A stretch of DNA of 64,000 bases, from positions 1 to 64,000 of the forward strand of contig NZ_CP029161.1 in assembly GCF_003096055.1 (NCBI RefSeq), read 5' to 3'. A program made the position numbers and the translations under genes. This DNA comes from Buchnera aphidicola (Melanaphis sacchari). GTDB taxonomy: Bacteria > Pseudomonadota > Gammaproteobacteria > Enterobacterales > Enterobacteriaceae. The notes under the pieces were generated by a model, which saw only the letters and a program-made list of their open reading frames with translations, did not search any database and was not told the origin of the DNA. How positions within the stretch are numbered: position 1 is the stretch's first letter; each line of letters starts with the position of its first letter. Below are positions 14,726-46,262 of this stretch, one piece after another.

Positions 14726-15474
14726 TTATGTTTTTTGGCAAATTTTTTTTAAAATAGATTGATTATTAGCATAGTTACAAGTAACTATATCTTTCCATCC
14801 TATTTTTTCAGCGATGTTTCTTAATCTTTTTCCCACAACAAAAATTTTACATTTAAACAACCATACATTTTTATCAATGTCAGAAATATTGTTGCTTAAT
14901 TTTTTTAAAATTTCCGCACTAGTTACTATCAATGTATTAATTTTATAAGAGCGCCATTTTTTAATCTCATTATTTTGATTAAAATCTTTAAAAATTTTTT
15001 TATAGCATTCAATTACAGATATATTAAAACCTTTTTTTTTAGGCTATTCCTTACTAGTTGCCTACCTTTTTCTCCTTGTAATAAAGTAATTTTAGAATTA
15101 TTAAGATCAATGTTTTCTAAAAGTTTTAAAAGATTTTCACTATTCTCTATATTTAAAGGAGTAAAAATTTTTTTTTTAATGTATTTATATAAAAATAATG
15201 CTGTGCTATTTCCAATAGCATAATATTCTGGATAAGAAGGCCATTGCAAGTTATTCTTTTTAAGAAATAAATTAGTATAATAAATAGATTTTTTAGAAAA
15301 TACTATAATTACATCCGATGTGTATAATTCGTAAAATTTTTTTGACAAACTTTTTTTACTGATACTTGGAAAAAATTCAAATAAAGAAAAATGCCATGCC
15401 GGTATACCTATATTATTGAGGCTATATGTTAACTTTTCTCCTTCAGGCGAAGGTCTTGTAATTAGTATTTTCAT
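14726..15474 (-). pseudogene. hemD: Uroporphyrinogen-III synthase HemD, frameshifted in poly(A)
   Basis: HemD cyclises hydroxymethylbilane to uroporphyrinogen III for haem and siroheme. The 5' frame runs from ATG 15474 ([13 protein letters not shown]) and ends at a stop soon after an A9 tract (plus-strand T9 at 15032-15040). With one extra A the frame continues as LKKKGFNISVIECYKK to VTSAEILKK and the stop at 14726, giving about 249 residues, near the E. coli 246. No other defect is seen. The ATG overlaps the hemC stop by 4 bases, so translation is coupled. The gene is either a very young pseudogene or is rescued by transcriptional slippage. Confidence 0.85.
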
Positions 15475-16415
15475 ATATAAAATGATTTTTTTACATTAAT
15501 GTTATTGAGAATTTTTTTTGCTCCATAACGAATTAATTCATTTGCAAGAGAATATCCCATTTGCTTGGCAGTACTATAACAACCAAATCTTTCTCCTCTT
15601 AATATTATTTTTCCGTCAGGTGATCCAATTAAACCTCTTAACCAAATTCTATTTTTTCTAAGAATAGCATAACTTCCTACAGGAATTTGACATCCTGATT
15701 CTATTTTTTTACAAAAAGCTCTTTCTGCATTGATTTCTATAAAAGTATTAATATCATTTAAATGTGATAAAAAAAATATTATTTTTTTATCATGCAGCCT
15801 CGACTGTATTCCAATAGCTCCTTGTCCAGATGAGGGTAATGATAATTCTGCAGGTATGATTTGAGAAATTCTATGTTTTAATCGCAATCTATTTAATCCT
15901 TCTGTTGCTAAAATAATTGCGTCATATTTTCCTTCATCTAGTTTGGCGATTCTTGTTTCTACATTACCTCTTAAAGGCAAAATTACTAAATCTGGTCGAT
16001 GAGTAATTAATTGACATTGTCTTCTAAGGCTAGATGTACCAATTATTGCTCCTTTTGGTAAATGATTAATTGATTCGTAGTTATTAGAAACTAATGAATC
16101 TAAAGCATTGCCTCTTTTACATATACTAATTAAACGTAGTTCTTTCGTAATACGCACCGGGAGATCTTTCATCGAATGAACAGCAATATCTGCTTTATTA
16201 TCAAGAAGAGCAAACTCTAATTCTTTTATAAATAATCCCTTCCCTCCTATTTTAGATAGCGATTTATTTAAAATATTATCACCGTGTGTCACAATAGGTA
16301 CTAATATTATTTTTAAATTTGGATATAACGATAATATTTTTTTTTGTACATATTTAGTTTGAGCTAGAGCTAATGGACTTCTTCTTGTGGCAATTCTTAA
16401 TGTATTATTTAACAT
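15471..16415 (-). CDS. hemC: Hydroxymethylbilane synthase (porphobilinogen deaminase)
   Basis: This 314-residue enzyme joins four porphobilinogens into hydroxymethylbilane. It has the N-terminal [13 protein letters not shown] motif, HSMKDLP, and [11 protein letters not shown] with its substrate-binding arginines. The dipyrromethane-anchoring cysteine is in [12 protein letters not shown]. Length is close to E. coli HemC (313). It is the upstream partner of hemD with a 4-base overlap. The order hemC, cyaY, dapF mirrors E. coli with cyaA deleted. Confidence 0.97.
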
Positions 16416-16471
16416 ATTATATTTGTTATTAATATAGAAATATTTTTATATAAAAATAATTATTGTATATT

Positions 16472-16822
16472 TTAAGCATTATAAAAAATTAAATTTTTTT
16501 CTAATTGCATAGAGCAAGAATTTTGAAATACTTTCCAAAAATTTTCGTTACTGCGATTGCAAATCCATTCATTATTTTTATAACTAAAATGATATGCGTT
16601 TATTTTAGTAGCTAACCAGACTTGTTGTAAAAATTCTTGTTTGTTAACTATAATTATACTTTTGTTAGGAAAAGTAATAGTTATAACATAATCTTGTATT
16701 TCATAATCAATATCAAACTTATCAAGATATAAATTTAAATTATTTTCTATTTTTAGAAATAGTTCATTTATTAAGTTATAAAAGTTATTATTTTTTTTGT
16801 TTAAATTTATTTTTTTTGTCAT
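16472..16822 (-). CDS. cyaY: Frataxin-like protein CyaY
   Basis: This is a 116-residue bacterial frataxin, an iron-binding modulator of IscS activity in Fe-S assembly. The conserved core reads [12 protein letters not shown], then [12 protein letters not shown], matching E. coli CyaY. The start at 16822 is chosen because AAGGA lies just upstream and the downstream length then fits the family (106). Longer in-frame starts exist but have no such support. The acidic iron-binding helix is less acidic than in E. coli, having become Asn/Lys-rich. It works with the isc genes 10 kb away. Confidence 0.93.
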
Positions 16823-16949
16823 AATAATATTCCTTGAATAAAAAATTAAAGTATTCATAATCAATTTTGTAAAATACTAAAAATATCATAAAAAATTTCA
16901 TTTTTTATTTAAAAAGGTTTTCTCAAATAAAAAAATAATAGGAAAAGCA

Positions 16950-17804
16950 ATGTTTTTAAGAAATAAAAATAAAAAAAAAATAAAGTTTTCTAAAATGCAT
17001 GGTTTAGGTAATGATTTTATGGTTGTTGAATTAATTAATCAAGATTTCATTTTTTCTCCAGATATAATTAAAAAATTATCGCATCGAAATACTGGTATAG
17101 GTTTTGATCAACTATTATTAGTTGAAAAATCGTATAATATTGAATTTGATTTTCATTATCGTATTTTTAATTCTAATGGTAGTGAAGTAGAACAGTGTGG
17201 TAATGGTGCACGTTGCATAGGTTTGTTTCTTTTATTAAAAGGATTAACAAATAAAAAAAAAGTTATTGTTTCCACTAAAAAAAATAATATAATCATTAAT
17301 TTTTTATCTAATAATTTAATTCAAGTAAATATGGGTCAACCAAATTTTAAAATAGATCAAATATCTACTTTAAATAAAAAAACATGCAATGATTTTTCAA
17401 CTAAACTTCTTAATAAAAGTTTATTATGTAATTTGGTATCTATAGGAAATCCGCATTGTATTATTCAAGTACAATCTATAAAATATGCTCCAGTAAAAAA
17501 GATAGCTCGAAAAATAGAAAAAAGTTTAATTTTTCCTAAAGGAATAAATGTAAGTTTTATGGAAATTATAAATAAAAATCATATAAAACTACGTGTTCAT
17601 GAACGTGATGTTGGCGAAACGCAATCTTGTGGTAGCGGAGCATGTGCAGCAGTTGCAGTAGGTATTGCGAAAAATTTACTTTCTAATAACGTAAAAGTTA
17701 ATTTATTAGGTGGAAGTTTGACTATTAATTGGAAAGGTTTTCAAAAACCGCTCTATATGACTGGATCAGCTAATCATGTTTTTGATGGTTATATATATAT
17801 CTAA
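16950..17804 (+). CDS. dapF: Diaminopimelate epimerase DapF
   Basis: This PLP-independent epimerase turns LL- into meso-diaminopimelate for lysine and peptidoglycan. The catalytic cysteine pair is visible in QCGNGARC and SCGSGACAA. The N-terminal [12 protein letters not shown] is nearly identical to E. coli. It has 284 residues against 274 in E. coli, with a slightly longer Lys-rich N-terminus. AGGA precedes the ATG. It is divergent from cyaY, as in the E. coli cyaY-dapF region. Confidence 0.98.
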
Positions 17805-17847
17805 TAAATAATTTTTTATTAAAACATATTTAGTATTGGAAAAAAAA

Positions 17848-19013
17848 ATGTTATTAAAAAAAAAAATATAAACAAAATTATTTTATCTCTTTTTTTGGGC
17901 GGTTTTTCTAGTTTTTCTATTTTATACTGCGTTCAATCTATTTTGCCAATTTTTTCTAAAGAATTTTTATTGAGTGCTACAGAAAGTAGTTTATCTTTAT
18001 CCGCTACAACAGCAACTATGGCGATCGGAGCATTATTTACTGGTTCATTATCAGACGTTATTGGTAGAAAATTAATTATGTCTCTATCTTTAATAGTTGC
18101 GGCTATTCTTACAATTATATGCTCTATGCTACATAGTTGGACAACTATTATTATAATTCGCTCTTTTATAGGACTGGCATTAAGTGGTGTAGTAGCAGTT
18201 GGTATGACTTATATTGTTGAGGAAGTAGAAAAAAAATATTTATCTTTTTGTATTGGGTTATACATCAGTGGAAATACTATAGGTGGCTTTGTTGGGAGAT
18301 TATTAAGTAGTATTTTATCAGAATATTTTTCTTGGAATGTGTCTCTTGCAATAATTGGATTTTTTTCTTTGTTTTCATCTTTTTTATTTTGTTATTTTTT
18401 ACCATCATCAAAAAATTTTTATCCTATATCAATAAATTATAAAAAATTTTTTAAAAGTTTTTATATCCATTTAAAAAATCCAATATTATACACTCTTTTT
18501 ATAATAGGATTTTTATTGATGGGTAGTTTTATTACTGTATTTAATTATATTAGTTATCGATTAATATTAGATCCCTTTTTTTTATCACAGTCTACAATAG
18601 GATTATTATCTGCCATTTATTTAACTGGAGTATATAGTTCACCTAAGGCTGGTGCATTAGCAAATAAATTTAATCGTAGTAATATCTTAATAATATCATT
18701 ATTAATAATGATTTTTGGAATATTATTAACTCAATACGATTATTTTTTAATAATTGTTTTAGGTTTAATGTTATTTTCTAGTAGTTTTTTTGCAGCACAT
18801 TCAATTGCAAGCAGTTGGGTAAGTTCTTGTGTAAAAACTGATAAAGTACAAGCTACTTCATTGTATTTATTTTTTTATTATTTAGGATCTAGTATATTTG
18901 GTACACTTGGTGGTTTCTTTTGGTTTTATTCAAGATGGTTTGGAATTTCTATTTTTATTATAGTTGTTCTATGTTTTGGAATATTATTATCCTTAAAATT
19001 AAAAAGGTTTTAA
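17848..19013 (+). CDS. ynfM: MFS transporter YnfM-like, 5' frameshift in poly(A)
   Basis: This is a major facilitator transporter of about 388 residues with 12 hydrophobic segments, most similar to E. coli YnfM (LGGFSSFSILYCVQ, LFTGSLSDVIGRK, LFFYYLGSSIFGTLGG). The substrate is unknown. ATG 17848, with GGA upstream, opens MLLKKK and then hits a stop, because the A tract at 17856-17866 is A11. A12 would fuse it in frame to the transporter. Otherwise translation must begin at TTG 17895, which cuts into the first membrane segment. The rest is intact, so the product is probably made through slippage or the weak TTG. Confidence 0.78.
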
Positions 19014-19112
19014 ATTGAATATTTATAAATAAATTTTATATTTTTCTTTCCTCAAACATAGTTTCTCACAGATAATAAGCTTAGTTCAATTCATCAAAAT
19101 GGCTTAAAGATT

Positions 19113-20582
19113 ATGCTATATTTACTTTTTTATTCTGATTTGAATCATAGTTTATTTATTTTATTAGCATTATTTTTTGTTATACTTTATGAAGCTATTA
19201 ATGGTTTTCATGATACCGCAAATGCTGTTTCGACTTTAATTTATACTCGTGCAATGTCTGCAAATCATGCGGTTATAATGTCTGGTATATTTAATTTTTT
19301 AGGGGTTTTTTTAGGAGGATTAACAGTTGCGTATGCTATCGTTCACTTGCTGCCAAATGATTTACTATTAAATTCTAATTCAAAAAATGCATTAGCCATG
19401 GTTTTCTCGATGTTATTCGCAGCAATACTATGGAATTTATCTACTTGGTATTTTTGTTTACCTGCGTCAAGCTCACATTCTTTAATTGGTGCGATTATTG
19501 GTATCGGTCTAACTAATTCCATGATTACTGGTACTTCTTGGGTTAACGCATTAAATATACCTAAAATGACAAATGTTTTATTATCTCTTATTTGCTCTCC
19601 AATTGTTGGATTAATAACATCTGGAATTTTAATTTTTTTACTGCGATTTTTTTTAAAAAACTCCAATCGATTTTATCAAATTCATATGACTCCATTAGAA
19701 AGAGAAAAAAGGGATGAAAAAAAACGCCCCCCGCTTTTAATTAGAATTTCCTTAATTTTGTCATCTATTGGAGTGAGCTATGCACATGGTGCAAACGATG
19801 GTCAAAAAGGCATTGGTTTAATTATGCTTGTATTAATCGGAATTGCACCATCTAGTTTTTTAATCAATCTAAATGCTTCTAAAGAACAAATTGTTTGCAC
19901 TAGAAATACAATAAACATATTGCATAAATATTTTTCTAAAAATTATATAACAATCAACCATAGTAGTTATCAAAATAAATTTAAAAAATTAACAGTTAAT
20001 TATTATTTTGATAATACAATCAAAAATATTCAAAGTGCTAAATTTTTATTAAAAAATGTATATAATTATAATAATTTAAATATACAAAATAGAAATAGTT
20101 TACGTCACCTTTTACTGTTTATTTCAGATGATATTGATAAAATAATAACTTCTACAAATATCACTGATCAAGAAAGATTTTTTTTAGAAAAAAATAAAAA
20201 AAATTTACTTAAAACAGTTGAATACGCCCCTACATGGATAATATTAATTATTGCGCTGTCTTTATCTTTAGGTACTATGATTGGTTGGAAACGTATAGTT
20301 ATAACTATTGGTGAAAAAATTGGAAAAAAAAGAATGACGTATGCTCAAGCTATGTCTGCTCAAATAACTGCTTCTTTTTCTATTGGAATCGCGAGTTACA
20401 CAGGTATTCCTGTATCTACAACACATATTTTATCATCATCTGTAGCTGGAAGTATGTTAGCTGATGGTTCTGGAATTCAAATAAGTACTATAAAAAATAT
20501 TATGTTGGCTTGGTTATTGACTCTTCCTGTTTCAATGTTATTATCTAGTTCTTTATATTGGATTTCTTTAAAATTAATATAA
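19113..20582 (+). CDS. pitA: Low-affinity phosphate transporter PitA
   Basis: This is a 489-residue inner-membrane metal-phosphate symporter of the PiT family. The two inverted PiT signature repeats are visible: YEAINGFHDTANAVST near the N-terminus and SYAHGANDGQKGIG in the middle, plus GIPVSTTHILSSS at the C-terminus. A long hydrophilic loop (about residues 255-370) separates the halves. Length is close to E. coli PitA (499). A bidirectional hairpin terminator follows at 20612-20641. Confidence 0.96.
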   Translation: MLYLLFYSDLNHSLFILLALFFVILYEAINGFHDTANAVSTLIYTRAMSANHAVIMSGIFNFLGVFLGGLTVAYAIVHLLPNDLLLNSNSKNALAMVFSMLFAAILWNLSTWYFCLPASSSHSLIGAIIGIGLTNSMITGTSWVNALNIPKMTNVLLSLICSPIVGLITSGILIFLLRFFLKNSNRFYQIHMTPLEREKRDEKKRPPLLIRISLILSSIGVSYAHGANDGQKGIGLIMLVLIGIAPSSFLINLNASKEQIVCTRNTINILHKYFSKNYITINHSSYQNKFKKLTVNYYFDNTIKNIQSAKFLLKNVYNYNNLNIQNRNSLRHLLLFISDDIDKIITSTNITDQERFFLEKNKKNLLKTVEYAPTWIILIIALSLSLGTMIGWKRIVITIGEKIGKKRMTYAQAMSAQITASFSIGIASYTGIPVSTTHILSSSVAGSMLADGSGIQISTIKNIMLAWLLTLPVSMLLSSSLYWISLKLI

Positions 20583-20611
20583 AATTTTTATAATATTAAC
20601 CTAATTTTTTT

Positions 20612-20641
20612 ATAGGAGTACTTTTAAAAACGTACTCCTAT
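20612..20641. terminator. Bidirectional terminator between pitA and rsmJ
   Basis: A perfect 10-bp stem ATAGGAGTAC/GTACTCCTAT with a 10-base loop is flanked by T-runs on both strands. It sits between the convergent pitA and rsmJ stops, so it can end both transcripts. Confidence 0.85.
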
Positions 20642-20644
20642 TTT

Positions 20645-21382
20645 TTATAATGGAAAATATATATCAAAGCGATAATTTTTATTTTTAATAATAAAATCAA
20701 CTTTATCATTAGATAATGATTTTGCATAACGCGGTCTTTTAACAATTACTCTTTTTTTAGCTAATTTTCTAGAAATTTTTAATAAAAATTCAGGTTGATT
20801 ATCAAACGTTACTATTTTTCTTAAAAATTGCATATTTTTTTTCGGAAGACATTTTTTTTGATTAACAGGATACATGGGATCTAAATAAATGACATCTGGT
20901 TGAGGAATAGAAAAATTTAACATATTTAAACTATTACCGAAAATTAAATTTAATCTTTTTTTAATCCAAAATCCATTTTTTTTATCTTGATAAGCTCTTT
21001 CTAGAGCATCTTCTAATAAAATAGACACAATAGGATTGCATTCTATCATAATTACTTTACATCCTAAAAAAGATAAAAAAAACGCGTCCTTACCCCATCC
21101 AGCTGTTGCATCTAAAATGAACGGAAAATAATTTTTTTTTATTCCTATAGCTTTATATAACAAATCACTTTTTTTTGAATGCATGCATCTATAATTATAT
21201 TTTTTTGAAATAAAGTCAATTTTAATTGATTTTTCTTTAGGCATAGAACGATCATATAATTCTAAATAACGAGAATTAATTATTAATGCTATAGAAGTAT
21301 TTTGATCATGCTCTAAATGATATTTATTAATTAATTTCCTTATTCTTTCATTTTTTTCTTTAAAAATTAAATATATTTTCAT
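20645..21382 (-). CDS. rsmJ: 16S rRNA (guanine1516-N2)-methyltransferase RsmJ
   Basis: This 245-residue SAM-dependent methyltransferase (YhiQ family) modifies G1516 of 16S rRNA. The SAM-binding motif is LDATAGWGKDAFFL, and the catalytic motif is DVIYLDPMYP followed by a KRPR basic stretch. E. coli RsmJ has 250 residues. In E. coli rsmJ is near pitA, and the two are convergent here with a shared terminator. Start at ATG 21382. Confidence 0.95.
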   Translation of the reverse strand: MKIYLIFKEKNERIRKLINKYHLEHDQNTSIALIINSRYLELYDRSMPKEKSIKIDFISKKYNYRCMHSKKSDLLYKAIGIKKNYFPFILDATAGWGKDAFFLSFLGCKVIMIECNPIVSILLEDALERAYQDKKNGFWIKKRLNLIFGNSLNMLNFSIPQPDVIYLDPMYPVNQKKCLPKKNMQFLRKIVTFDNQPEFLLKISRKLAKKRVIVKRPRYAKSLSNDKVDFIIKNKNYRFDIYFPL

Positions 21383-21637
21383 AATATTTTTATTTTTTTA
21401 ATATTAATAATTGACTTTTTGAAAAATCTAATTAATATACAAATTAAGACAATGTAATTTATTTTTTTAAATATATTTATTTATATTAATTAATAAACAA
21501 ATTATTGTTGAATAAATAAAATTTTTTTAAAGCAAAATAAACCAAAAAATTATTTTTTTATTTGTTTTTTAAAGTTTAATTTATATTTTTTAAAATTTTT
21601 TTACTAAAATAATAAATTAAAAAAAGGAAAAAAAATT
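21383..21637. other. AT-rich divergent spacer before the orphan gene
   Basis: This 255-base spacer lies between the divergent rsmJ and the orphan gene. It holds only A/T runs, with AAAAAGGAAAAAA just before the orphan ATG serving as ribosome binding site. No RNA gene or remnant protein could be recognised. Confidence 0.6.
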
Positions 21638-23037
21638 ATGTCATCTAATATTACTCTAGTTGATAAATTAAATCCAACACGTTTTTATGAAACACTAAAT
21701 AAAAAAAATATCAATTCTAAAGTGTTAAAAGATACAAAAAATAAGACACAGAATGATCAAAATCCTATTTTTTATTTAAAGGAAAAAGATTTATATTTAT
21801 TAAATGCAAGCGATGTAAACAAAAAAAATGATTATGAAGATGTTGAAATAAAATTAATAAATAAAATAAATGAAGATCTTAATAATTTAAATATTATTGA
21901 AGATATTATGAAAAAAAAACTTTTTCTGAATCCTCTCTAAATAAAGACTCCATTCGATCTTTTTATCAATCTTTTCTTAATTATTCACTCAATATATTTA
22001 AATCTATTTATAGTACAATTACAGATACGTTAAAAAAATTAGATTTAAAAAAACAAATTATCTCCCTCTTTAATAAAATAAAAAGTAACATTTTTAATGT
22101 TTTTGAGAAAATTAAAAATGAAGCCGTAAGTCTTTTTAATTCTAGTTGTGATTTTATTTCAAACATATTCTATTCGATAATAAAAAAATCAACACCACCT
22201 GCACCACCAAAAAAATCAGACAATGATATTATTAATGATTTAATGCAACGCGTTAAAGAACTTAAAGAAACTATTAAATCTTCAAAAATTTTTATACATA
22301 CTATAATTGAAAAAATTAGAGATACAGGAAAAATTAAAATAGTTAATAAACTAAATAATAATCCGTTGCATCCTGAATATCAAAGTACTTTTCCTGATTT
22401 ACATTTAGCCTCTAATAAAATAGATAATTCAAATCAATCGTATTTATCAAGTTTAAATGAACAATTTGATTTAGAAAATAAAAATAATATAATTAATAGA
22501 TATTTAATAAATAAAATAGATAATAATTTTAAAAAATCTTCTATTCCTATTGACATACCTGAAAAGATTAAAGAAAAAATAAAACTTTTTTTTGAAAAAA
22601 GTAAACCAGTAAATGAAATAAATCAAGATTTTATGGAAGATTTTCACTCTTCTCTTTTTATTGTTGATGGAAATTTGATTTATTCTACGAACAAAGAAGA
22701 TATGATAAGAGAATTTAAAAAAATAGTTCCAAATATTGAAGACCGAAAATTTATTTCTACATATGCTCGTCCGAAACTTTTAAATAAATCTTATTTTGAA
22801 CTAATATCTGAACATCCCGAATTAAATGAATATAGAATTACTAACTCAAGAAATATTTATGAAATTAATCATTTAAAAGATGGAACGCTTCAGCTGATTG
22901 TTACTAATTTATCTGACATTTCTCCTACAGATGATAATTCTATTAAAAGATATTGTGCATTTGGAGTTCGTGCTAGTGCAATTCTTTCTCCGGAAAGTAA
23001 TTCACCAATAATGGAATATTCACATTTCCTTAATTAA
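21638..23037 (+). pseudogene. Orphan lineage-specific protein, frameshifted in poly(A)
   Basis: I do not recognise this family. The 5' frame starts at ATG 21638 (MSSNITLVDKLNPT) behind AAAGGAAA and ends at 21940, shortly after an A9 tract at 21911-21919. With A10 the frame continues without a stop to 23037, giving about 466 residues. The parts are a charged N-terminal 90 residues, a run of amphipathic helices (about 105-185), a Pro-rich hinge STPPAPPKKS, a Lys/Asn-rich linker, and a more complex C-terminal domain ending MEYSHFLN. There is no signal peptide or clear membrane span. Buchnera genomes carry restricted hypothetical genes (yba3/yba4, from memory) around here. Function is unknown. 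Confidence 0.7.
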
Positions 23038-23058
23038 ATTAATATAAGTATTCTTTTA

Positions 23059-23095
23059 TAAACTAATAGGGTATGTTACATACCCTATTAGTTTA
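23059..23095. terminator. Bidirectional terminator between orphan gene and coaD
   Basis: A perfect 17-bp stem with core AATAGGGTATG and a TTA loop, flanked by A/T runs on both sides, lies between the convergent ends of the orphan gene and coaD. It is the longest perfect hairpin at any junction in the window, showing that the orphan locus still has a defined transcript end. Confidence 0.88.
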
Positions 23096-23106
23096 ATATT
23101 AAATTT

Positions 23107-23601
23107 TTAATTATAAATATTATTAAATTTTTCTAATAAAGCAAAATGTATCTCTTTAGGTAAATAAGGTTTAACGTTTCCTTTATATTTAGCTATTTCT
23201 TTGACGAAAGAAGAAGATATGAAAGAAACTTCTTTTGAAGATAATAAAAAAATACTATCTAAATCTGGGTAGATTTGCTTATTAATTGCGGCTAATTTAA
23301 TTTCATAATCAAAATCAAATATTGTACGTACTCCTCTAATTAAAACGTTAGTTTTTTCTTTTTTTGCTAAATTTGCAAGTAAATCATTAAAACCAATTAT
23401 TTTTTTAATGTTTTTTAGGTTTAACGTAGCTAATTTTGTTAATTCTATTCTTTCTTTTAAACTAAAAATAGTTTTTTTATTTAAATTATTAGAAATAGCA
23501 ATAATGATATTATCAAAAATTTTAGTTGCACGTATTATAATATCTAAATGGCCGTATGTAATTGGATCAAATGTACCTGGATATATTGCGATTTTTTTCA
23601 T
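23107..23601 (-). CDS. coaD: Phosphopantetheine adenylyltransferase CoaD
   Basis: This 164-residue nucleotidyltransferase makes dephospho-CoA from phosphopantetheine and ATP. It has YPGTFDPITYGHLDII with the (T/H)xGH-type motif at the N-terminus, RGVRTIFDFDYE, and a C-terminal SSFVKEIAKY. Length is normal for the family (159 in E. coli). It is convergent with the orphan gene and divergent from epmA. Confidence 0.96.
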   Translation of the reverse strand: MKKIAIYPGTFDPITYGHLDIIIRATKIFDNIIIAISNNLNKKTIFSLKERIELTKLATLNLKNIKKIIGFNDLLANLAKKEKTNVLIRGVRTIFDFDYEIKLAAINKQIYPDLDSIFLLSSKEVSFISSSFVKEIAKYKGNVKPYLPKEIHFALLEKFNNIYN

Positions 23602-23692
23602 TTTTTTATAAGATTTAATGTATGTATAAAGTTTATTAAAATGTTAATAAATGCATAATAAATTAATTTTTTAAAAAATTTTAAGGTGTATT

Positions 23693-24673
23693 ATGAAAAA
23701 AACATGGAAACCTAGTGCTTCTATTAAAGATTTAGTTCAACGCGCAAAAATTATTGAAAATATTCGATTATTTTTTAAAAAAAATAAAATTCTAGAAGTA
23801 GAAACACCAATTTTATCTCAATTTACTACAACAGATGCAAATTTAACTCCTTTTAGTACCAGTTATTATTCTCCATATAATGATAATAATTCTATTAAAA
23901 AAAAATTATGGCTTTCCACTAGCCCAGAATACCATATGAAACGTTTACTAGCAGCACAAAGTGGATCTATATATCAAATTTGTCATAGTTTTAGAAATAA
24001 AGAGTTTGGGCGCTATCATAATCCAGAATTTACCATGTTGGAATGGTATCAAATTGATTGCAAAATGAAGGTTTTTATGAAAGAAGTAGATCGTTTTTTT
24101 CAAAAAATATTAAATTTTAATAAATCAGATCAGATTTCTTATCAAGAAATATTTATAAAGTATTTGAATATAGATCCGTTATCTGCTAATTCTATTGATA
24201 TTTTAAAAATTTTTAAATTATTAGATTTAGAGCATTTAATTTCTGATGAAATAGATAAAAATAAATTAATAGAAACTTTATTTACAGTAAAGATACAACC
24301 ATTTTTAGGAGAAAAAAATCCATTATTCGTATATCATTTTCCTGCAGAACAAGCTTCTCTTGCTTTTGTTAACGAAAATGATTCCCGAGTAACAGAAAGA
24401 TTTGAAATATTTTTTAAAGGAATTGAATTAGGAAATGGTTTTTATGAACTTACAGATTATTCTGAACATAAAAAAAGATTTAAAAAAGATAATAAAAATC
24501 GTTTTAAAGAAAATTTATCTCCAAGAAAAATAGATAATTATTTTTTAAACGCTATACGTTATGGTTTGCCTTCATGTTCAGGAATAGCAATAGGTTTAGA
24601 TCGCATTATTATGATAGCATTAAAAAAAAAGAGTATTGATCAAGTTATTTCTTTTTCATTTAATCGATCTTAA
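23693..24673 (+). CDS. epmA: Elongation factor P--lysine ligase EpmA
   Basis: This 326-residue LysRS-like protein (GenX/PoxA/YjeA) attaches beta-lysine to EF-P. It resembles the catalytic half of class II lysyl-tRNA synthetase without an anticodon domain. Motif 2 is in CHSFRNKEFGRYHNPEFTMLEWY, and motif 3 is in GIAIGLDRIIMIA. Length equals E. coli EpmA (325). AAGGTGT precedes the ATG. Its stop lies 3 bases from the end of the convergent fpr. Confidence 0.95.
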   Translation: MKKTWKPSASIKDLVQRAKIIENIRLFFKKNKILEVETPILSQFTTTDANLTPFSTSYYSPYNDNNSIKKKLWLSTSPEYHMKRLLAAQSGSIYQICHSFRNKEFGRYHNPEFTMLEWYQIDCKMKVFMKEVDRFFQKILNFNKSDQISYQEIFIKYLNIDPLSANSIDILKIFKLLDLEHLISDEIDKNKLIETLFTVKIQPFLGEKNPLFVYHFPAEQASLAFVNENDSRVTERFEIFFKGIELGNGFYELTDYSEHKKRFKKDNKNRFKENLSPRKIDNYFLNAIRYGLPSCSGIAIGLDRIIMIALKKKSIDQVISFSFNRS

Positions 24674-24676
24674 ATA

Positions 24677-25429
24677 TTACCAATAATTTTCCATTGTGAT
24701 TTGACCTTTTTGGCGTCTTAAATTTTTTTTCATAAATCTACTTTTCTGTAAATATAAGCATGTATCTTTAACCATTTCAGGATTTCCACATAGCATAACA
24801 TGTGAGTTTTCAGCATCAATCTTTAAACCAATTTTTTTCTCTAAAATATTATTTTTCAGTAAAAATGGAATTCTACCGAATAAAGAATTATTGTCTTTTT
24901 CTCTACTAGTTATAGTTTGAATTTTTAATTTTCCATTATACTTTTTATGTATTTTTTTTAACAAAGAAAGATAAGTTAATTCATTTTTTTTTCTTACAGC
25001 ATGTACTAAAATAATATTTTCATATTTTTCAGTATTTTTATGTTCTTCTAAAATAGAACAGTAGGGACCAATAGCTGTACCAGTTGCAAACATCCATAAT
25101 TTTTTACAAGGCGGTATTTCATCTAATATAAAAAAACCAGATGCATTTTCTTTGATAAGAATTGTATCTCCAGAATTTAATTTATATAAAAGATTACTTA
25201 ATTTTCCATTTTTAACGCGAACAATATAAATTTCTATTTTTTTATCGCTAGGTGCGTTAACAAAAGAATATGCTCTCTGTATTTTTTTTTCTTGTTGTTC
25301 ATCATATAAAGCTAATTTTGTGAATTGACCTGCTTTAAAAGGAGATATAGATGCATTTAAGATGAGACTAAATAAATTGTTAGTCCATTTTCGATTTTCT
25401 AAAACAGTAGCATTAATCCATGGATTCAT
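24677..25429 (-). CDS. fpr: Ferredoxin/flavodoxin NADP+ reductase Fpr
   Basis: This 250-residue FAD enzyme passes electrons from NADPH to flavodoxin or ferredoxin. The FAD-binding motif is RAYSFVN, the NADPH-binding signature is ATGTAIGPY, and the C-terminus ENYW matches E. coli EHYW. The start at 25429 ([15 protein letters not shown]) is preferred because AGGAGT lies upstream and it aligns with the E. coli start. An upstream extension would run into the ibpA terminator hairpin. It is the likely electron source for the Isc ferredoxin. Confidence 0.96.
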
Positions 25430-25459
25430 GGTATTTTTTAACTCCTTTATTAAAAATAT

Positions 25460-25493
25460 AATCATTGTACTTAAATAAAAAAGTACAATGATT
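25460..25493 (-). terminator. Hairpin terminator downstream of ibpA
   Basis: A perfect 13-bp stem (AATCATTGTACTT and its complement) with the 8-base loop AAATAAAA lies between the ibpA stop and the fpr start on the minus strand. It should isolate the heat-shock ibpA transcript from fpr. Confidence 0.8.
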
Positions 25494-25531
25494 AGGAAAA
25501 ATATTCATGTGTCTTTAAAAATTAGTTAAAT

Positions 25532-28244: not shown

Positions 28245-28513
28245 TTATAAATTTTCTAATTTTTTAATATATTTCCACTTTTCTTTTGGCTCCGGAGGCA
28301 ATGAGTTTTCACAATTTATTTTTTTTTCGATAATTGTTTTTTTTGTTATATTGGGTTTTTTAAAAAATATATTTAAAAAATAAAAAAAAAGAATAATTAT
28401 GCTTATAATAAAAAAGAAGTTGTATTTGTTAAATTTTATACTTTTTTTTTATTTCTTTTTTTATTTATATTTTTAAAATAAATTGAATTAATTTTATTTT
28501 GATCGTTGTACAT
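28245..28513 (-). pseudogene. ftsN: Truncated cell-division protein FtsN, frameshifted in poly(A)
   Basis: ATG 28513 opens MYNDQNKINSIYFKN and stops just after an A9 tract (plus-strand T9, 28442-28450). With A10 the frame runs on through a hydrophobic segment (FFFIISIIILFFYFL) to ENSLPPEPKEKWKYIKKLE and the stop at 28245, for 89 residues. The last motif matches E. coli FtsN GNGLPPKPEERWRYIKELE, just outside the membrane. Position upstream of hslVU matches E. coli ftsN-hslVU. The SPOR domain and linker of the 319-residue protein are absent. It could be a minimal septum activator or a decaying gene. Confidence 0.82.
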
Positions 28514-28837: not shown

Positions 28838-28843
28838 TTTATT

Positions 28844-37038: not shown

Positions 37039-37249
37039 ATTAACATTTCTAATTAGATTTAATTAAAATTTTTTAAATATTTATTTAATTTTCGTTAAAT
37101 TTTTTTAATTTAATTAATTTATTGAATAAATTTTAATAAAAATATTTTAAAAAATTTTATCCCGTTAAAATAAAAAAGTATTTTTTTACTCAGAATATTA
37201 TAATTTTTAAAAATTTTTAGAATTTATTTTTCATAGAATGAGGCATAAA

Positions 37250-38506
37250 ATGGCCTGGAATAAATTAAACAAAAAAGAGTCTGAAAGTGATCTGTGGGGA
37301 AAAAAAGATAATCAAAAAAAAGATTGCTCAAGTAACTTAAATGAAAAAAATATTAGTACAAAAAAAAATATATCTGATTTTAAGAAATTTATATTAGACT
37401 TTACCAAATTAGTTACTAAAAAAACTTATTCGTCTAATTCGTCTAAATCACCGAATTCATTAAATAAATTAAAAAATAATATAAATCCTTTTTTAATAAT
37501 TTTTTTTATAATTTTTTTTATTTGGTGCGTTAGTGGTTTTTATACAATTAAAGAAGCAGAACGTGGTGTAGTAACTAATTTTGGAAAATTTAGTCATGTA
37601 GTTGGACCAGGTCTTAATTGGAGGCCAGTTTTTATTAATGAAGTCAAATCTGTAAATGTTGAAACTGTTCGTGAATTAGCAACTTCAGGTACCATGTTAA
37701 CTTCTGACGAAAATGTAGTACGAGTCGAAATGAATGTACAATATAAAATTACAAATCCTTCAGATTATTTATTTTCTGTTAATTATCCTGACGATAGCTT
37801 GCGTCAAGCTACTGATAGTGCATTGCGTGGAGTTATTGGGCATTTAACTATGGATAGAATATTAACTGAAGGTCGTACTTTAGTAAGAAATAATACTCAA
37901 AAAGAAATTGAAGAAACTATTAAGCCCTATAATATGGGAATTACTATATTAGATGTAAATTTTCAAACAGCAAGACCTCCAGAAGAAGTTAAATCTGCTT
38001 TTGATGACGCAATTGCTGCTCGTGAAAATCGCGAACAATATATACGAGAAGCTGAAGCATATGCAAACGAAGTCGAACCAAAAGCAAAGGGAAGGGCGCA
38101 AAGAATTTTAGAAGAAGCTAAATCGTATTCTTCAAAAATAATTCTAGAAGCGCAGGGAGAAGTAGTTCGTTTTTTAAAAATTTTACCAGAATATAAAAAA
38201 GCTAAAAATATTACACTTCAGCGACTTTATATAGAGTCAATGGAAAGATTGTTGCTAAAAAATAAAAAAATTTTTATTGATAACAAAAATAAATCAGGAT
38301 TATTTTTATCTTTAGGAAACATTTTTGATTCTTTAAAAGAAAATAAAAAAATTTTTACTAGTTCAGTAGAGACATTGAAAAATCATGCTAATTTTAAACA
38401 AAAAAAAGATGTTAACAGACTTTCTTTATCATCTTTTCATGATTTTTCAAAACAAAATCGTCTTAATTTAGTTGATCAGAATACTCAAAATACACATAGG
38501 AAGTAA
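37250..38506 (+). CDS. hflK: HflK, FtsH-regulating membrane protein
   Basis: This is a 418-residue SPFH/band-7 protein that forms a membrane complex with HflC controlling FtsH. It has a hydrophilic N-terminal tail, one membrane segment (about residues 83-99), then the band-7 domain: GFYTIKEAERGVVTNFGKF, TSDENVVRVEMNVQY and the coiled-coil-like EEVKSAFDDAIAARENREQYIREAEAY. The start at 37250 (MAWNKLNKK) aligns with E. coli MAWNQPG and has GAGG upstream. hflC follows after 4 bases. Confidence 0.97.
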   Translation: MAWNKLNKKESESDLWGKKDNQKKDCSSNLNEKNISTKKNISDFKKFILDFTKLVTKKTYSSNSSKSPNSLNKLKNNINPFLIIFFIIFFIWCVSGFYTIKEAERGVVTNFGKFSHVVGPGLNWRPVFINEVKSVNVETVRELATSGTMLTSDENVVRVEMNVQYKITNPSDYLFSVNYPDDSLRQATDSALRGVIGHLTMDRILTEGRTLVRNNTQKEIEETIKPYNMGITILDVNFQTARPPEEVKSAFDDAIAARENREQYIREAEAYANEVEPKAKGRAQRILEEAKSYSSKIILEAQGEVVRFLKILPEYKKAKNITLQRLYIESMERLLLKNKKIFIDNKNKSGLFLSLGNIFDSLKENKKIFTSSVETLKNHANFKQKKDVNRLSLSSFHDFSKQNRLNLVDQNTQNTHRK

Positions 38507-38510
38507 ATTT

Positions 38511-40759
<2,249 letters not shown>

Positions 40760-40858
40760 ATAATGTTTTTATTTAATTTTTTCAAAATGTTTTAACTAAG
40801 AATATTATTTTCATAATTTAATGTCAATTAATAATTAATTTAATTGGAGAAAGAAAAT

Positions 40859-43048
40859 ATGGTAGTAGATATCTACCAAAAAAAAGTAATAAAAAAATAT
40901 AAAAATTCTGTTCCTAGTAGGAAATATATTTTACTTCTTTTAAAAAAGTATAATAATTTAATTAGTAAAAAAATTTTAGAAAAAAAACTTCATATTAATT
41001 GTCGAAAAGAAAAACAAATATTACGTCAACGATTGAAAAGAATGGAGAAAGATAATCAAATTATATATACCTCTAATCGTCGCTATATATCTTTAGAAAA
41101 TCTTAATTTGGTTAAAGGAAAAGTTATAGGTCATAGAGATGGTTATGGATTTCTCAGAACAGAAACATTAAAAGAGGATGTTTGGATTTCTAAGGATGAA
41201 ATGAAATCATGTATTCATGGAGATCTTGTTTTAGCCCATATTATACAGTTAAATAAAAAAAGAAATATCGCTAAAATATTAAAAGTATTTCAATCAACTA
41301 ATATATTAATTGTAGGTCGATATTATTTAGATAAAAAAATAGAATTTGTGATTCCTAATGACAGTCGTTTTAATTTTAAAATTTTTATTTTGCCTTCAAT
41401 TATTAATAATAAAATTACGATAGGATCAATTGTTTTAGTTAAATTAAAAAAGGGCTTTTTTAAAAATAAAATACAAGGAAAAATAATAGAAGTATTAGGT
41501 AAAAAAATGGGAATTGATTTATCAATTAACGTTGCTTTAAGAACACATAATATTCCTTATTCATGGTCAAGAGAAGTAAAAAATCAATTGTGTCGAATCA
41601 GTAATAAAATTAGTCAAAAAGATTTAGATAATCGCGTGGATTTAAGACACTTCCCTTTTTTTACTATTGATGAAAAAGATGCTCGTGATTTTGATGATGC
41701 TATTTTTTGTAAAAAAAAGAAAGATTTAGAAGAAGGATGGAATTTATGGGTAGCAATTGCAGATGTAAGTTATTACATTAAACCCAATACTGCTTTAGAT
41801 AAAGCAGCTTTTAACAGAGGAAACTCTGTATATTTTCCCTCTCTAGTGGTACCAATGTTACCAGAAAAAATATCCACAGACTTATGTTCTTTAAATCCTT
41901 CCGTAGATCGTTTATGCTTAATATGCGAAATGAGTTTGTCAAGTGAAGGAAAATTAGTTCAATATAAACACTATGAAGCAGTTATTCGTTCTCATGGACG
42001 TTTTACATATGATGAAATATTTGATATTTGGAATGGTAACGTTGAATTACAATTAAAATATAAAAAATTATTAAAATATATTCAAAATATGTTTTTTTTA
42101 TACAAATTTTTAAACAAAAAAAGATTTTTAAAAAAAGGTATTTCTTTTGAAAATGCAGAAGCTAAATTTATTTTAGATGATCATTTTCGTATTAATAAAA
42201 TTTATCAAAAAATTCGTAATGACGCTCATAAGTTTATTGAAACTTGCATGATATTAGCCAATATAGCATCTGCTCGATTTATTGAAAAATATAATTATCC
42301 TATATTATTCAGAAATCATGCTCAGCCAAGCAAAGAAAGTGTGAGTAGTTTTCGTTTGTTATTAAAAGAATTAGGACTTTCTTTATTAGGTGGAGACAAT
42401 CCAAAGGCTTGTCATTATTCAATTTTACTAAAAAAAATATTAAATCGTCCTGATTATGAAATGATTCAAACTTTATTGTTACGTTCTATGAAGCAAGCTG
42501 TGTATTCTCCTATTAATTGTGGTCATTTTGGACTTGCTTTATCTAGTTATGTGCACTTTACTTCTCCTATTAGACGTTATCCTGATCTTATATTACATAG
42601 AATCATTAAAAAATTAATTTTAAAAAATAAGAGAGAAGCTTCTTTTAAAAAAGAATCTTGTAATTATAAGAAATTTTTTTTATACAATATAAATGAAATG
42701 AAAAAAATAGGCGCTCACTGCTCTATTACCGAAAGACGAGCAGATGATGCGACGAGAGATGTTGTTGATTGGTTAAAATGCGAATTTATGAAAAATAAAA
42801 TTGGTTATATTCTGACAGGAGTGATTTCAAATGTTACCTCTTTTGGTTTTTTCGTGCGTTTAGACAAATTTTTTATCGATGGATTAGTTCATATAGAAAA
42901 ATTAAGTGATGATTATTATTATTTTGATTCTATGGGTTTAAAATTAATTGGCAAATCAACTAAAAATATTTATCGATTGGGCGATACTTTAAAGGTAAAA
43001 GTTATTTCAGTTAATTTAAATCAAAGAAAAATTGAATTATCTTTATAA
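40859..43048 (+). CDS. rnr: Exoribonuclease R
   Basis: This is a 729-residue RNB-family 3'-5' exonuclease that degrades structured RNA. It has an N-terminal winged helix and cold-shock domains (KGKVIGHRDGYGFLR, CIHGDLVLAH), and an RNB domain with DARDFDDAIFC catalytic aspartates. HFTSPIRRYPDLILHR and a C-terminal S1 domain (GVISNVTSFGFFVRLD) follow. The start at 40859 has GGAG 10 bases upstream. The long Lys-rich tail after the S1 domain of the 813-residue E. coli enzyme is gone. Confidence 0.97.
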   Translation: MVVDIYQKKVIKKYKNSVPSRKYILLLLKKYNNLISKKILEKKLHINCRKEKQILRQRLKRMEKDNQIIYTSNRRYISLENLNLVKGKVIGHRDGYGFLRTETLKEDVWISKDEMKSCIHGDLVLAHIIQLNKKRNIAKILKVFQSTNILIVGRYYLDKKIEFVIPNDSRFNFKIFILPSIINNKITIGSIVLVKLKKGFFKNKIQGKIIEVLGKKMGIDLSINVALRTHNIPYSWSREVKNQLCRISNKISQKDLDNRVDLRHFPFFTIDEKDARDFDDAIFCKKKKDLEEGWNLWVAIADVSYYIKPNTALDKAAFNRGNSVYFPSLVVPMLPEKISTDLCSLNPSVDRLCLICEMSLSSEGKLVQYKHYEAVIRSHGRFTYDEIFDIWNGNVELQLKYKKLLKYIQNMFFLYKFLNKKRFLKKGISFENAEAKFILDDHFRINKIYQKIRNDAHKFIETCMILANIASARFIEKYNYPILFRNHAQPSKESVSSFRLLLKELGLSLLGGDNPKACHYSILLKKILNRPDYEMIQTLLLRSMKQAVYSPINCGHFGLALSSYVHFTSPIRRYPDLILHRIIKKLILKNKREASFKKESCNYKKFFLYNINEMKKIGAHCSITERRADDATRDVVDWLKCEFMKNKIGYILTGVISNVTSFGFFVRLDKFFIDGLVHIEKLSDDYYYFDSMGLKLIGKSTKNIYRLGDTLKVKVISVNLNQRKIELSL

Positions 43049-43231
43049 ATATATTTTTTTAAAAAAATTTATAATTAATTAAAATAAATTAAATTTATTG
43101 ATTTTTTAAGTAATTTAAAATAGTATGTAAAAATAATCAAAGTTTTTACAAAAGTTCCTTGCATCTTTTAAAAAATAAAGTTTAATCTTATTTTTTAAGA
43201 AGCTAAAAAACCAAAAGGATCGTTCTCTCAA

Positions 43232-43573
43232 ATGCGTCATTATGAAATTGTACTTATGATTCATCCTGATTATAGTGATAAAGTAAACTTAATTATTGAA
43301 AAATATAAAAAAATTATTTCTAATCATTCAGGTGTAATACATCGTTTAGAAGATTGGGGAAGACGCCAATTATCATATCCAATTAAAAAACTTCATAAAG
43401 CTCATTACATCCTCATGAACATAGAAGCTGATTCTAAAATCGTTAATTTACTAGAAACAGATTTTCGTTTTAATAACGCAGTTATTAGAAATATGATTAT
43501 GTCTGTGAAGAAACCAATTTCTGAATTGTCACCTATAATGAAATTAAAAGAAGAAAAAAAAGAAAAAAAGTAA
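43232..43573 (+). CDS. rpsF: 30S ribosomal protein S6
   Basis: This is a 113-residue S6 with [39 protein letters not shown] and a Lys/Glu C-terminal tail in place of the glutamate tail of E. coli. AAAGGAT lies 10 bases upstream. It is first of rpsF-rpsR-rplI. priB, which separates rpsF from rpsR in E. coli, is absent. Confidence 0.98.
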
Positions 43574-43643
43574 ATTTTTAAGTATTAATTTTTATTTCTT
43601 AAAAATCTTTTTAAAACAAGAAAATAATATTAGAGGTATCTAA

Positions 43644-43871
43644 ATGGCACGCTACTTTCGTCGTCGTAAATTTTGTCGTTTTACTGCGGAAGGTATTCAA
43701 GATATAGATTATAAAGATATTATAATGTTAAAAAATTATATTACAGAAAATGGAAAGATCGTTCCCAGTCGAATTACCGGAACACGTGCTAAATATCAGC
43801 GTCAATTATCTCGTTGTATTAAAAAAGCACGATATCTTGCTTTGCTTCCATATACTGATCAACACCGCTAA
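43644..43871 (+). CDS. rpsR: 30S ribosomal protein S18
   Basis: This is a 75-residue S18 nearly identical to E. coli: [13 protein letters not shown] near the start, then [34 protein letters not shown]. It has higher GC than its neighbours, as usual for ribosomal genes here. GAGGTATC precedes the ATG. It pairs with S6 on the 30S platform. Confidence 0.99.
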
Positions 43872-43908
43872 AATTTTTCTAATAACACATTCTAAGAGAG
43901 AATAAAAA

Positions 43909-44361
43909 ATGGAAGTCATTCTTTTGTTAAAAATTAATAAATTAGGTAATTCAGGGGCTATTATTCGTGTAAAACCTGGTTATGCTAGAAATTTTTTAAT
44001 TCCTACAGGAAAAGCAATTTTAGCTAATAAAATAAATATTGAGTCTTTTGAAGCTCAGCGTATTGAATTAGAAAAAGAAGACACAAATAAATTTCTTATT
44101 GCTCAATCACGAGCTGAAAAAATAAAAAAAATAAAATCTATAACAATTTTATCTAAAGTTGGCAAAGAAGGAAAAATATTCGGTTCTGTAGGTATTAGGA
44201 ACATTATTAAAGAAATTTCTTTATTAGGTATCAAAATAAACAAAAAAGAAATACGTTTACCAAACGGAGTATTGCGTCATACAGGAGAGCACACAGTCGT
44301 TTTTCAGCCTCATCCTAAAATACATCAATATTTTATTGTTAATATAATTTCAAAGAAATAA
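43909..44361 (+). CDS. rplI: 50S ribosomal protein L9
   Basis: This is a 150-residue L9 with the N-terminal rRNA-binding part (LGNSGAIIRVKPGYARNFLIPTGKAI), a long connecting helix, and the C-terminal domain (KIFGSVG, LPNGVLRHTGEHTV). Length matches the family (149). It is the last gene of the rpsF-rpsR-rplI operon; AGAGAG precedes its start. Confidence 0.98.
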   Translation: MEVILLLKINKLGNSGAIIRVKPGYARNFLIPTGKAILANKINIESFEAQRIELEKEDTNKFLIAQSRAEKIKKIKSITILSKVGKEGKIFGSVGIRNIIKEISLLGIKINKKEIRLPNGVLRHTGEHTVVFQPHPKIHQYFIVNIISKK

Positions 44362-44401
44362 TTATAGATTAAATGTATTTAATTATTAATACAGGTATAC
44401 A

Positions 44402-45148
44402 ATGCTAAAAAAAGTATGTAAATTGGCACGCGTTGCTGGAAGTGCTATTATGGATATATATTCTTCTCAAGAAAATTTTATTAAGATATCTTATAAATTA
44501 AATAATACACCAATAACTAATGCCGATTATATATCAAATAATATTATTACGACAGGATTAACTTCTTTTTTTCCAAATATTCCTATATTATCTGAAGAAC
44601 AAAAACATCATTTAAAAAATTACAAATCTTGGAACATATATTGGTTAATTGATCCATTAGATGGAACGAAAGAATTTTTAAAAAAAAATGGAGAATTTAC
44701 AGTAAATATTAGTTTAATTCAAAAGGGTATTCCAATATTAGGTGTTTTATATGCTCCTTTTTTTGACATTTTATATTTTTCTTTTAATAAAAAAGCCTGG
44801 AAAGAAACATCAAAAGGTTGTGAAAGAATTTACGTTGCTCAATCTGATGTACCATTATTAATAACTAGTAGATCACATATAGATGATCAGCTAGAATATT
44901 ATTTGAGTACGTTAAAAAATTATAAAATAAAAAAATTAGGTTCATCATTAAAATTCGGCTATATAGCTGAAGGAACAGCTCAAATTTATCCGAGATTTGG
45001 AAGTACATATATTTGGGATACTGCTGCAGGTCATGCTATTGTAATTGCTTCTGGTGGAAAAATGCAAGCATTGAATGGAAGGAAACTAGATTATTTATTG
45101 TCTTCTCAATCTTCTTTAATTAATCCAGGATTTTTTGCTACTTCGTAA
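44402..45148 (+). CDS. cysQ: 3'(2'),5'-bisphosphate nucleotidase CysQ
   Basis: This 248-residue Mg-dependent phosphatase removes PAP, a by-product of sulfate assimilation. It has the inositol-phosphatase fold motifs SEEQ, WLIDPLDGTKEF and YIWDTAAGHAI, carrying the metal ligands. Length is near E. coli (246). It is the sulfur-pathway member of the window and suggests that PAPS-dependent sulfate reduction operates, or did until recently. dut follows 13 bases later. Confidence 0.96.
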   Translation: MLKKVCKLARVAGSAIMDIYSSQENFIKISYKLNNTPITNADYISNNIITTGLTSFFPNIPILSEEQKHHLKNYKSWNIYWLIDPLDGTKEFLKKNGEFTVNISLIQKGIPILGVLYAPFFDILYFSFNKKAWKETSKGCERIYVAQSDVPLLITSRSHIDDQLEYYLSTLKNYKIKKLGSSLKFGYIAEGTAQIYPRFGSTYIWDTAAGHAIVIASGGKMQALNGRKLDYLLSSQSSLINPGFFATS

Positions 45149-45161
45149 AGTTAAGTGTATT

Positions 45162-45617
45162 ATGTATAAAATTAAAATTAAAATATTAAATTCATGTATT
45201 AATAAAAAAAATTTTTTATTACCTAAGTATGCTACTTCTGGTTCATCAGGTTTAGATTTAAGAGCTTCTATAAAAGAAAAAATTTTATTGATTGCTAACG
45301 ATGTAATTTTAATTCCAACAGGAATTGCAATATACATCGAAAATCCTTATATTACCGCTTTAATTTTACCTCGTTCAGGATTAGGCCACAAAAATGGAAT
45401 TATCTTGGGAAATTCAGTTGGTTTAATTGATTCAGATTATCAAGGTGAATTAATGATATCTTTGTGGAATCGAAGTAAAAAAAATTTTTACATTAATCCA
45501 AATGATAGAATTGCTCAATTAGTTTTTGTTCCGATTATTAGACCTAATTTTTATATAGTAAATAATTTCAAAAAAACATTACGTTCAAAAAAAGGTTTCG
45601 GACATTCTGGCATGTAA
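45162..45617 (+). CDS. dut: dUTPase Dut
   Basis: This 151-residue trimeric enzyme cleaves dUTP to dUMP, keeping uracil out of DNA and supplying dTMP synthesis. Five conserved motifs are visible, including SGLDLRA, PRSGLGHKNGI, GLIDSDYQGEL, RIAQLVFVP and C-terminal GFGHSG. The start at 45162 (MYKIKIKIL) aligns with E. coli. An upstream in-frame start inside cysQ is unlikely. It is convergent with the broken pyrE. Confidence 0.97.
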   Translation: MYKIKIKILNSCINKKNFLLPKYATSGSSGLDLRASIKEKILLIANDVILIPTGIAIYIENPYITALILPRSGLGHKNGIILGNSVGLIDSDYQGELMISLWNRSKKNFYINPNDRIAQLVFVPIIRPNFYIVNNFKKTLRSKKGFGHSGM

Positions 45618-45633
45618 AATTTTAAATTATTTT

Positions 45634-46262
45634 TTAATAAAAATTATATTTTTCTTGGTATTCAATTATTTTTTTTCCATATTTTTTTAATTCTTCGATT
45701 TTTAAAACGTATGAAATAAATTCATTAATTTTAATAATTGAATTTATTTTGTATTTTTCTTTTTCGTGCCTATTAATACTTATTTTTTTTTCTTCTCTGT
45801 CTAATAATACAAAAATTGAAACTATTTTAGATTTTTCATTTTTAATTATTTCAATAGCTTGTTTTATTGACGCCCCTGATGTAACAACATCATCTAAAAT
45901 AATAATTTTTTTATTTTTTATTTTTTCGCCTATTAAAAATCCTTTTTCTCCATGTTTTTTTTGTTCTTTTCTATTGAAACAATATGGAATATTTACATTA
46001 TATTTATTTTTTAGAGCGATGGAAGTAGCTACGACAATGGGAATTCCTTTATATGCAGAACCGAATAATACATCAAATTGAATATTTGAATTTATTATAG
46101 CTTTTGCGTAAATTAAACCAATTTCAAATATATCTTTTCCTGCACATAAAATTCCAGAATTGAAAAAATAAGGACTGATGCGTTTAGATTTTAAAACAAA
46201 TTTTCCGAAAGTTAAAACTTTTTTTTTATAAGAAATTTAATAAATGTTTCTTTATAATTCAC
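45634..46262 (-). pseudogene. pyrE: Orotate phosphoribosyltransferase PyrE, frameshifted in poly(A)
   Basis: PyrE makes OMP in pyrimidine synthesis. GTG 46262, with GGAG upstream, opens NYKETFIKFLIKKK. At an A9 tract (plus T9, 46219-46227) the reading is one base short. In the shifted frame the protein runs unbroken to 45634: FGKFVLKSKRISPYFFNSG, GSAYKGIP and the PRPP motif ILDDVVTSGAS. With A10 the product is 209 residues (E. coli 213). The conserved frame has no ATG, so simple gene callers miss it. No other lesion is seen. Confidence 0.88.

Follow-up and report, generated by a model that had tools for sequence, protein, structure and literature searches.

What keeps a gene in service once a single lost base has broken its reading frame? 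The question is raised by the first 64,000 nucleotides (nt) (positions 1-64000, the window from here on) of a 626,137-bp contig, the Buchnera chromosome of Buchnera aphidicola (Melanaphis sacchari), whose whole genome comprises 637,486 bp. An earlier note on this DNA had pointed to five A runs, in hemD (A9 at 15032-15040), ynfM (A11 at 17856-17866), a gene that we call the orphan (A9 at 21911-21919), ftsN (A9 at 28442-28450) and pyrE (A9 at 46219-46227), and their positions and lengths are all as it gave them. At every one of them, the upstream frame meets a stop no more than a few codons from the run, and the rest of the gene lies in a frame displaced by a single missing base. From the sequences compared here, we think it probable that old frameshifts in coding A runs are kept because slippage brings a portion of the product back into frame. 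The orphan site and the common pyrE break are old and under selection, and hemD has a similar history at another run and is being lost in places.

The comparison covered the window's genome and up to 35 congeneric genomes, 36 in total. Ratios of nonsynonymous to synonymous substitution rates (dN/dS) were obtained by a simple counting method, not a codon model, and pooled over at most 11 chosen close pairs. Changes of state were counted by parsimony on a midpoint-rooted tree of 35 taxa built from seven proteins, in which some nodes are weak and G030 is missing. The stretch fetched from G030 was fully masked, so this genome was also left out of the orphan and hemD state counts.

The orphan gene, for which Pfam and NCBIfam gave no family above cut-off, reads as follows in the window:

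21638-21940, plus strand: first frame, the N part, an open reading frame (ORF) of 100 amino acids (aa) starting MSSNITLVDK; a similar start of this ORF occurs in most congeners
21911-21919, plus strand: putative A9 slip site with a G just 5' of it, an exact A9 in all 34 genomes that have the gene
21901-23037, plus strand: second frame, 378 open codons, supported as an ORF and by dN/dS, with its first ATG, GTG or TTG 114 codons in, at 22243

The gene was found in 34 of the 36 genomes examined (G025 has no orphan match in its whole genome), and its two parts stand in the -1 relation in 29, in a -2 relation in four (G011, G032, G035 and G017, the last assigned by hand, its N part carrying a further break) and in a single frame in one. 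This last genome, G016, has one open frame of 515 codons with the A9 retained; set by eye against its sister G029, its frame changes about 12 codons downstream of the run, an apparent second-site re-fusion. Four changes on the tree account for these states. A family-wide search found an orphan match in 16 of 198 genomes, including the window's own and G012, and only in small, symbiont-sized ones. All eight copies examined from outgroup genera form one continuous frame of 306-493 codons, and seven of them have MSS, MSY or MSP at or near the start, as does the window gene, by visual comparison. Scoring of 32 split copies showed that the second frame runs for 25-179 codons past the tract before its first ATG, GTG or TTG, and the pooled dN/dS (ten pairs) is 0.32 for the second part and 0.42 for the stretch that precedes this first start codon. 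Because the A9 stands in all 34 genomes, the outgroups carry a single ORF and the start-less stretch is constrained, the most likely reading is that of a single gene that lost its frame early in the genus and has remained shifted since, its N part evolving fast. As a guess, its two ORFs may be the 'yba3' and 'yba4' of PMC1899503, which that paper describes as highly expressed.

The second case, pyrE, has its break close to the start of the gene:

46219-46262, minus strand: start region, with GTG at 46260-46262 and the N part VNYKETFIKFLIKK, ending in the run
46219-46227, minus strand: putative A9 slip site, TTATAAAAAAAAAG in the coding sense, uninterrupted in all 14 shifted copies
45634-46236, minus strand: body frame, orotate phosphoribosyltransferase (TIGR00336, 162.7 bits)

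Relative to the body, the start frame is shifted by -1 in 14 of 36 genomes (G000, G001, G008, G010, G012, G015, G016, G018, G022, G024, G026, G029, G031 and G033), and the run is interrupted in four of the 22 in-frame copies. Parsimony requires three changes on the 35-taxon tree, which agree, for example, with a shift gained in the ancestor of G000 and 13 other genomes, undone in G013 and gained separately in G012. In G013 the frame was apparently regained through an extra T upstream of the run. The body shows a dN/dS of 0.170 in six -1 pairs, against 0.157 in the five pairs of in-frame copies. The body frame of 13 shifted copies out of 14 either lacks any ATG, GTG or TTG or has its first one 24-112 codons in, and the N part (KKEFIEFLLKK) is similar across most of the shifted copies. 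The same -1 arrangement is found in G053, from another genus; outgroup copies are in frame in G134, G161, G079 and G158, and the script left G200 and G056 unassigned. With -1 states in both G012 and the other-genus G053, outside the main clade, this site may break repeatedly.

It is the combination of a break common to species, a conserved A9 and purifying selection past the tract that argues for slippage in the orphan and pyrE. In hemD the break of the window is a different one from the break that is common in the genus:

15013-15474, minus strand: first frame, 153 aa, uroporphyrinogen-III synthase, positions 1-148 of the 246 of NF004582
15032-15040, minus strand: A9 near codon 147, where this genome is broken; in the 32 others that have both parts, a single frame passes this point
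14726-15043, minus strand: second frame, positions 148-244 of the 246 of NF004582
15168-15177, minus strand: A10 near codon 99, where this genome is in frame; of 33 genomes, 23 are -1 and two are -2 in this region

Between about codon 95 and a conserved motif, the remaining eight of the 33 genomes with both parts are in frame, and the gene as a whole is single-frame in five (G004, G020, G024, G027 and G029). Most shifts lie at one A9 or A10 run at about codon 99, that of G005 apparently at the next run; a run of 9 or 10 is present there in 25 of 25 shifted and six of eight in-frame copies. The dN/dS is 0.32 before the shift and 0.38 after it, some pairs including an in-frame copy. Thresholded at E <= 0.1 over the whole genome, a HemD domain match is present in G001 and G008 and absent from G019 and G021. 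Thus, hemD is kept shifted by many lineages and lost by some. A hand-made coding of the run as 'interrupted' gave p = 4e-5 and is not relied on, having been chosen after the sequences had been viewed. PMC3890641 describes HemD as very rare among Buchnera and as non-functional in strain APS.

How could such genes still be decoded? Old single-base losses in the A runs of coding genes would have been retained by descent, with the first and second frames of the orphan and of pyrE still yielding one protein. RNA polymerase would slide back on the A9 and add one A in a fraction of the mRNAs; ribosomes would read these corrected mRNAs through, and the remaining mRNAs would give a short, truncated product. 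PMC5009743 quotes earlier work in which 12-50% of transcripts were corrected for frameshifted genes of one aphid and one ant symbiont, and PMC5574713 describes Buchnera transcription insertions as mostly single bases in A or T runs, rising exponentially with run length. From the features of the sites, we infer that correction occurs and that it is mainly transcriptional.

A -1 lesion can be made good either by one extra A in the mRNA or by a -1 ribosomal slip, which would be equivalent to it. In E. coli, dnaX is subject to -1 ribosomal frameshifting, and the sites described here resemble it in their A-rich slippery stretch and in the direction of the shift. A ribosome slipping on A AAA AAA or A AAA AAG could restore the frame in the same manner; the pyrE runs end in A AAA AAG, and A AAA AAA lies inside the orphan run, as such a heptamer does in any A9. 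We nevertheless consider this explanation unlikely. Unlike dnaX, the orphan and pyrE sites have no nearby stimulator resembling a Shine-Dalgarno sequence (none within 18 nt upstream in 33 orphan and 14 pyrE sites), and structure in the 60 nt downstream is slight (mean z -0.45 and -0.25, respectively). In addition, the orphan run is 9 long, not 7, in all 34 genomes, and the genomes in a -2 state, four for the orphan and two for hemD, keep the run, whereas a -1 slip would not serve them. Because of the run length of 9, the lack of such a motif, the slight structure and these -2 states, the sequences place transcriptional slippage well ahead of ribosomal frameshifting.

It is tempting to go further and to propose that the orphan carries a genus-wide programmed site of transcriptional slippage, its A9 kept as a switch that governs how much short N-terminal protein is made relative to the full fusion, and that the published absence of hemD from most Buchnera is likewise partly the misreading of a slippage-decoded gene; we put this forward only tentatively.

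Several observations weigh against the retention of these breaks through slippage. The N part of the orphan is near-neutral (dN/dS 0.83, ten pairs). Neither the association between an uninterrupted run and the shifted state in pyrE (p = 0.14) nor that between run and shifted state in hemD (p = 0.053) is significant, and we therefore reject the association with interrupted tracts as proof. The hemD site at codon 99 needs nine changes on 31 taxa (states coded by hand) and so toggles; a search of the whole genomes of G019 and G021 at E <= 0.1 gave no match to the HemD domain, and further hemD breaks are found in G001 and G008. The body of pyrE in G010 has a TTG three codons past the aligned start, by which an internal start is possible, and in the window's genome an ATT heads the body frame. 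Some ordinary runs of A8 or longer are nearly as well kept as the orphan run (hslV in 32 of 34 genomes, rpmE in 31 of 34, dapF in 30 of 34). Lastly, PMC5574713, a study of Buchnera LSR1, detected no frame-restoring transcription error. As controls, 27 A8+ runs in neighbouring intact genes stay A8+ in a mean of 41% of species, the best of nine A9+ runs in such genes stays A9+ in 25 of 34, and the pooled dN/dS is 0.10 for hemC, 0.19 for dapF, 0.13 for the ynfM body and 0.24 for rsmJ.

Taken together, some of these observations would fit pseudogenes early in decay, namely the loss of hemD in G019 and G021, its multiple breaks in G001 and G008 and the near-neutral N part of the orphan, as would the ftsN remnant with its shifts of both signs. 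We regard this as quite improbable, since the breaks are common to species, constraint is undiminished in pyrE and the orphan body, and the apparent second-site returns (G016 for the orphan, G013 for pyrE) make use of the downstream frame. Relaxed constraint and further lesions, the traits of a pseudogene, are not seen in the orphan body or in pyrE, and hemD shows them in part, in G001, G008, G019 and G021.

The need for any recoding would disappear if the orphan were two overlapping genes and pyrE started internally. The second frames are long, and the TTG of G010 and the ATT of the window's genome offer pyrE a conceivable start. Separate starts are very unlikely, however, because the 25-179 orphan codons that precede any ATG, GTG or TTG are under constraint (pooled dN/dS 0.42), and because the pyrE N part stays similar in most -1 copies. 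The orphan as two genes was rejected, as the outgroup genera and G016 carry one ORF. Finally, homopolymer under-calls in the assembly, which could be suspected as all five runs of 9-11 are one base short, are hardly credible and were rejected as a general account, given that the same orphan and pyrE states recur in many separate genomes, that the homopolymer length spectrum here resembles those of G010 and G018 and that pitA, which lies in this stretch too, stays open in one frame in each of the 34 genomes that matched. Under-calling may still explain ftsN and the hemD break that is private to this genome.

Slippage-restored decoding, then, is best argued for the orphan and pyrE; for ynfM and ftsN it is not established. 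The relevant features of these two genes are the following:

17848-17871, plus strand: candidate ynfM start, ATG followed by the A11 (17856-17866), with a stop after seven codons; the same ATG-A11 -1 state occurs in G001, G008 and G010
17859-19013, plus strand: ynfM body frame, a transporter of the major facilitator superfamily, supported as an ORF and by a family match
28436-28513, minus strand: first frame of the ftsN remnant, MYNDQNKINSIYF..., from the sequence
28442-28450, minus strand: A9 of the ftsN remnant, from the sequence
28245-28448, minus strand: second frame of the ftsN remnant, 67 aa, with a weak FtsN match

No ATG, GTG or TTG lies in the ynfM body frame upstream of the run in the window's genome; the N terminus differs in most congeners, and G024 has A10. 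The past-run piece of ftsN matches only positions 51-91 of the 319-position FtsN model, with 23.5 bits against a cut-off of 525, and the name ftsN is therefore itself weakly supported. Among 32 genomes with a match, ftsN is -1 in five, +1 in eight, in frame and open in 13, in the same frame and stopped in three and without a recognised start in three, and its A runs span 8 to 19. The gene is cut down to about 80 aa in many congeners (window 28245-28513).

These differences decide how far the claims of the earlier note can be carried. It held that one added A restores a family-length or continuous frame in every case: the two frames of hemD, the orphan, ftsN and pyrE do differ by one missing base at the run, but ftsN, with its 67-aa past-run piece, is not family-length, and a break in ynfM exists only where the ATG at 17848 is taken as the start. 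For the orphan and pyrE, a break common to species and constraint past the tract give good support to the view that the five represent a standing state of decoding rather than independent pseudogenes; this view applies to hemD at the level of the genus but not to the window's own private break or to the two genomes that have lost the domain match, and it does not extend to ftsN or ynfM. Among relatives, the tract is A9 in the orphan and in shifted pyrE and ranges from A8 to A19 in ftsN, and dN/dS 3' of the tract is, by the counting method, below 1 in pyrE, hemD and the orphan alike.

Two further arguments did not survive. Random decay had been thought incapable of placing all lesions in coding-strand A runs; yet among the sense-strand runs of at least 9 in the ORFs of this genome (census restricted to ORFs of 80 aa and more), 414 of 474 are A and 60 are T, so the probability that five of five fall in A runs is 0.51. 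Nor do all lesions share one sign genome-wide. Searches with tblastn over three whole chromosomes found 17 frame junctions in the window's own genome (-1 in 13, +1 in three, one ambiguous), 15 in G010 (-1 in eight, +1 in seven) and 14 in G018 (-1 in 12, +1 in two), the majority at A runs, not all. These totals are lower bounds, the window's five being absent from the list, because N parts are short or reference copies are likewise broken. PMC3164680 lists 8-18 homopolymeric frameshifts per genome in six Aphidinae Buchnera. A search of a plasmid collection returned short matches only, covering 1-3% of the query.

Slippage-rescued frameshifts are already known, and the orphan and pyrE look like new instances. 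Tamas et al. (2008, PNAS) reportedly gave experimental proof that frameshifted cell-wall genes of Buchnera are rescued by transcriptional slippage. Like those genes, the present ones belong to a host-bound symbiont and have lost a single base in coding A runs, and murC and murE are in such a state here. In contrast to them, the candidates here are other genes (pyrE, hemD, the orphan and lepB), proposed from sequence, and the orphan state extends across almost the entire genus. Wernegreen et al. (2010, MBE) are likewise said to have described ancient homopolymer frameshifts kept by selection in Blochmannia and attributed to slippage. As in those cases, frameshifts are conserved between species without gene decay; in contrast, the symbiont and the genes are different, and our comparison spans up to 36 genomes and includes -2 states and apparent second-site re-fusions. 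The sites also resemble programmed transcriptional realignment as treated in PMC5009743 and PMC3711429 (dnaX, Shigella), with a nine-base run, two frames and no ribosomal stimulators seen; unlike those systems, they are candidates recognised from sequence. Among the matches listed in a literature search by title, we recognised no report of genus-wide conserved frameshifts in the Buchnera orphan, pyrE or hemD.

Frameshifted genes are left out of symbiont annotations and metabolic models, and PMC9116674 dropped frameshifted coding sequences before analysis. Should such genes be decoded by slippage, many Buchnera have been misjudged in their pyrimidine, siroheme, envelope and protein-export capacities. 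The orphan A9, which all genomes here with the gene possess, would serve as a natural experiment: can slippage turn into a permanent component of gene expression?

Comparable states occur in this genome outside the window. The gene for signal peptidase I, lepB (C1:342573-343507), is -1 at an A12 here, and also in G010 (A10) and G018 (A9); of the 36 genomes, 13 have it as an open frame of 271-285 codons and 23 as one of 313-323. Similarly, murC (C1:389767-391223) is -1 at an A10 here and also in G010 (A10) and G018 (A11); among the 35 genomes that match, its open frame measures 379-399 in 10 and 464-508 in 25, and a few of the matches contain one internal stop. Both murE and ftsI are -1 at an A10 in this genome. 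Finally, at C1:352630-352643, a junction near A6/C5 is present in this genome and in G018, against a 100-aa ORF in G010, which reflects either an error or a true change in G010.

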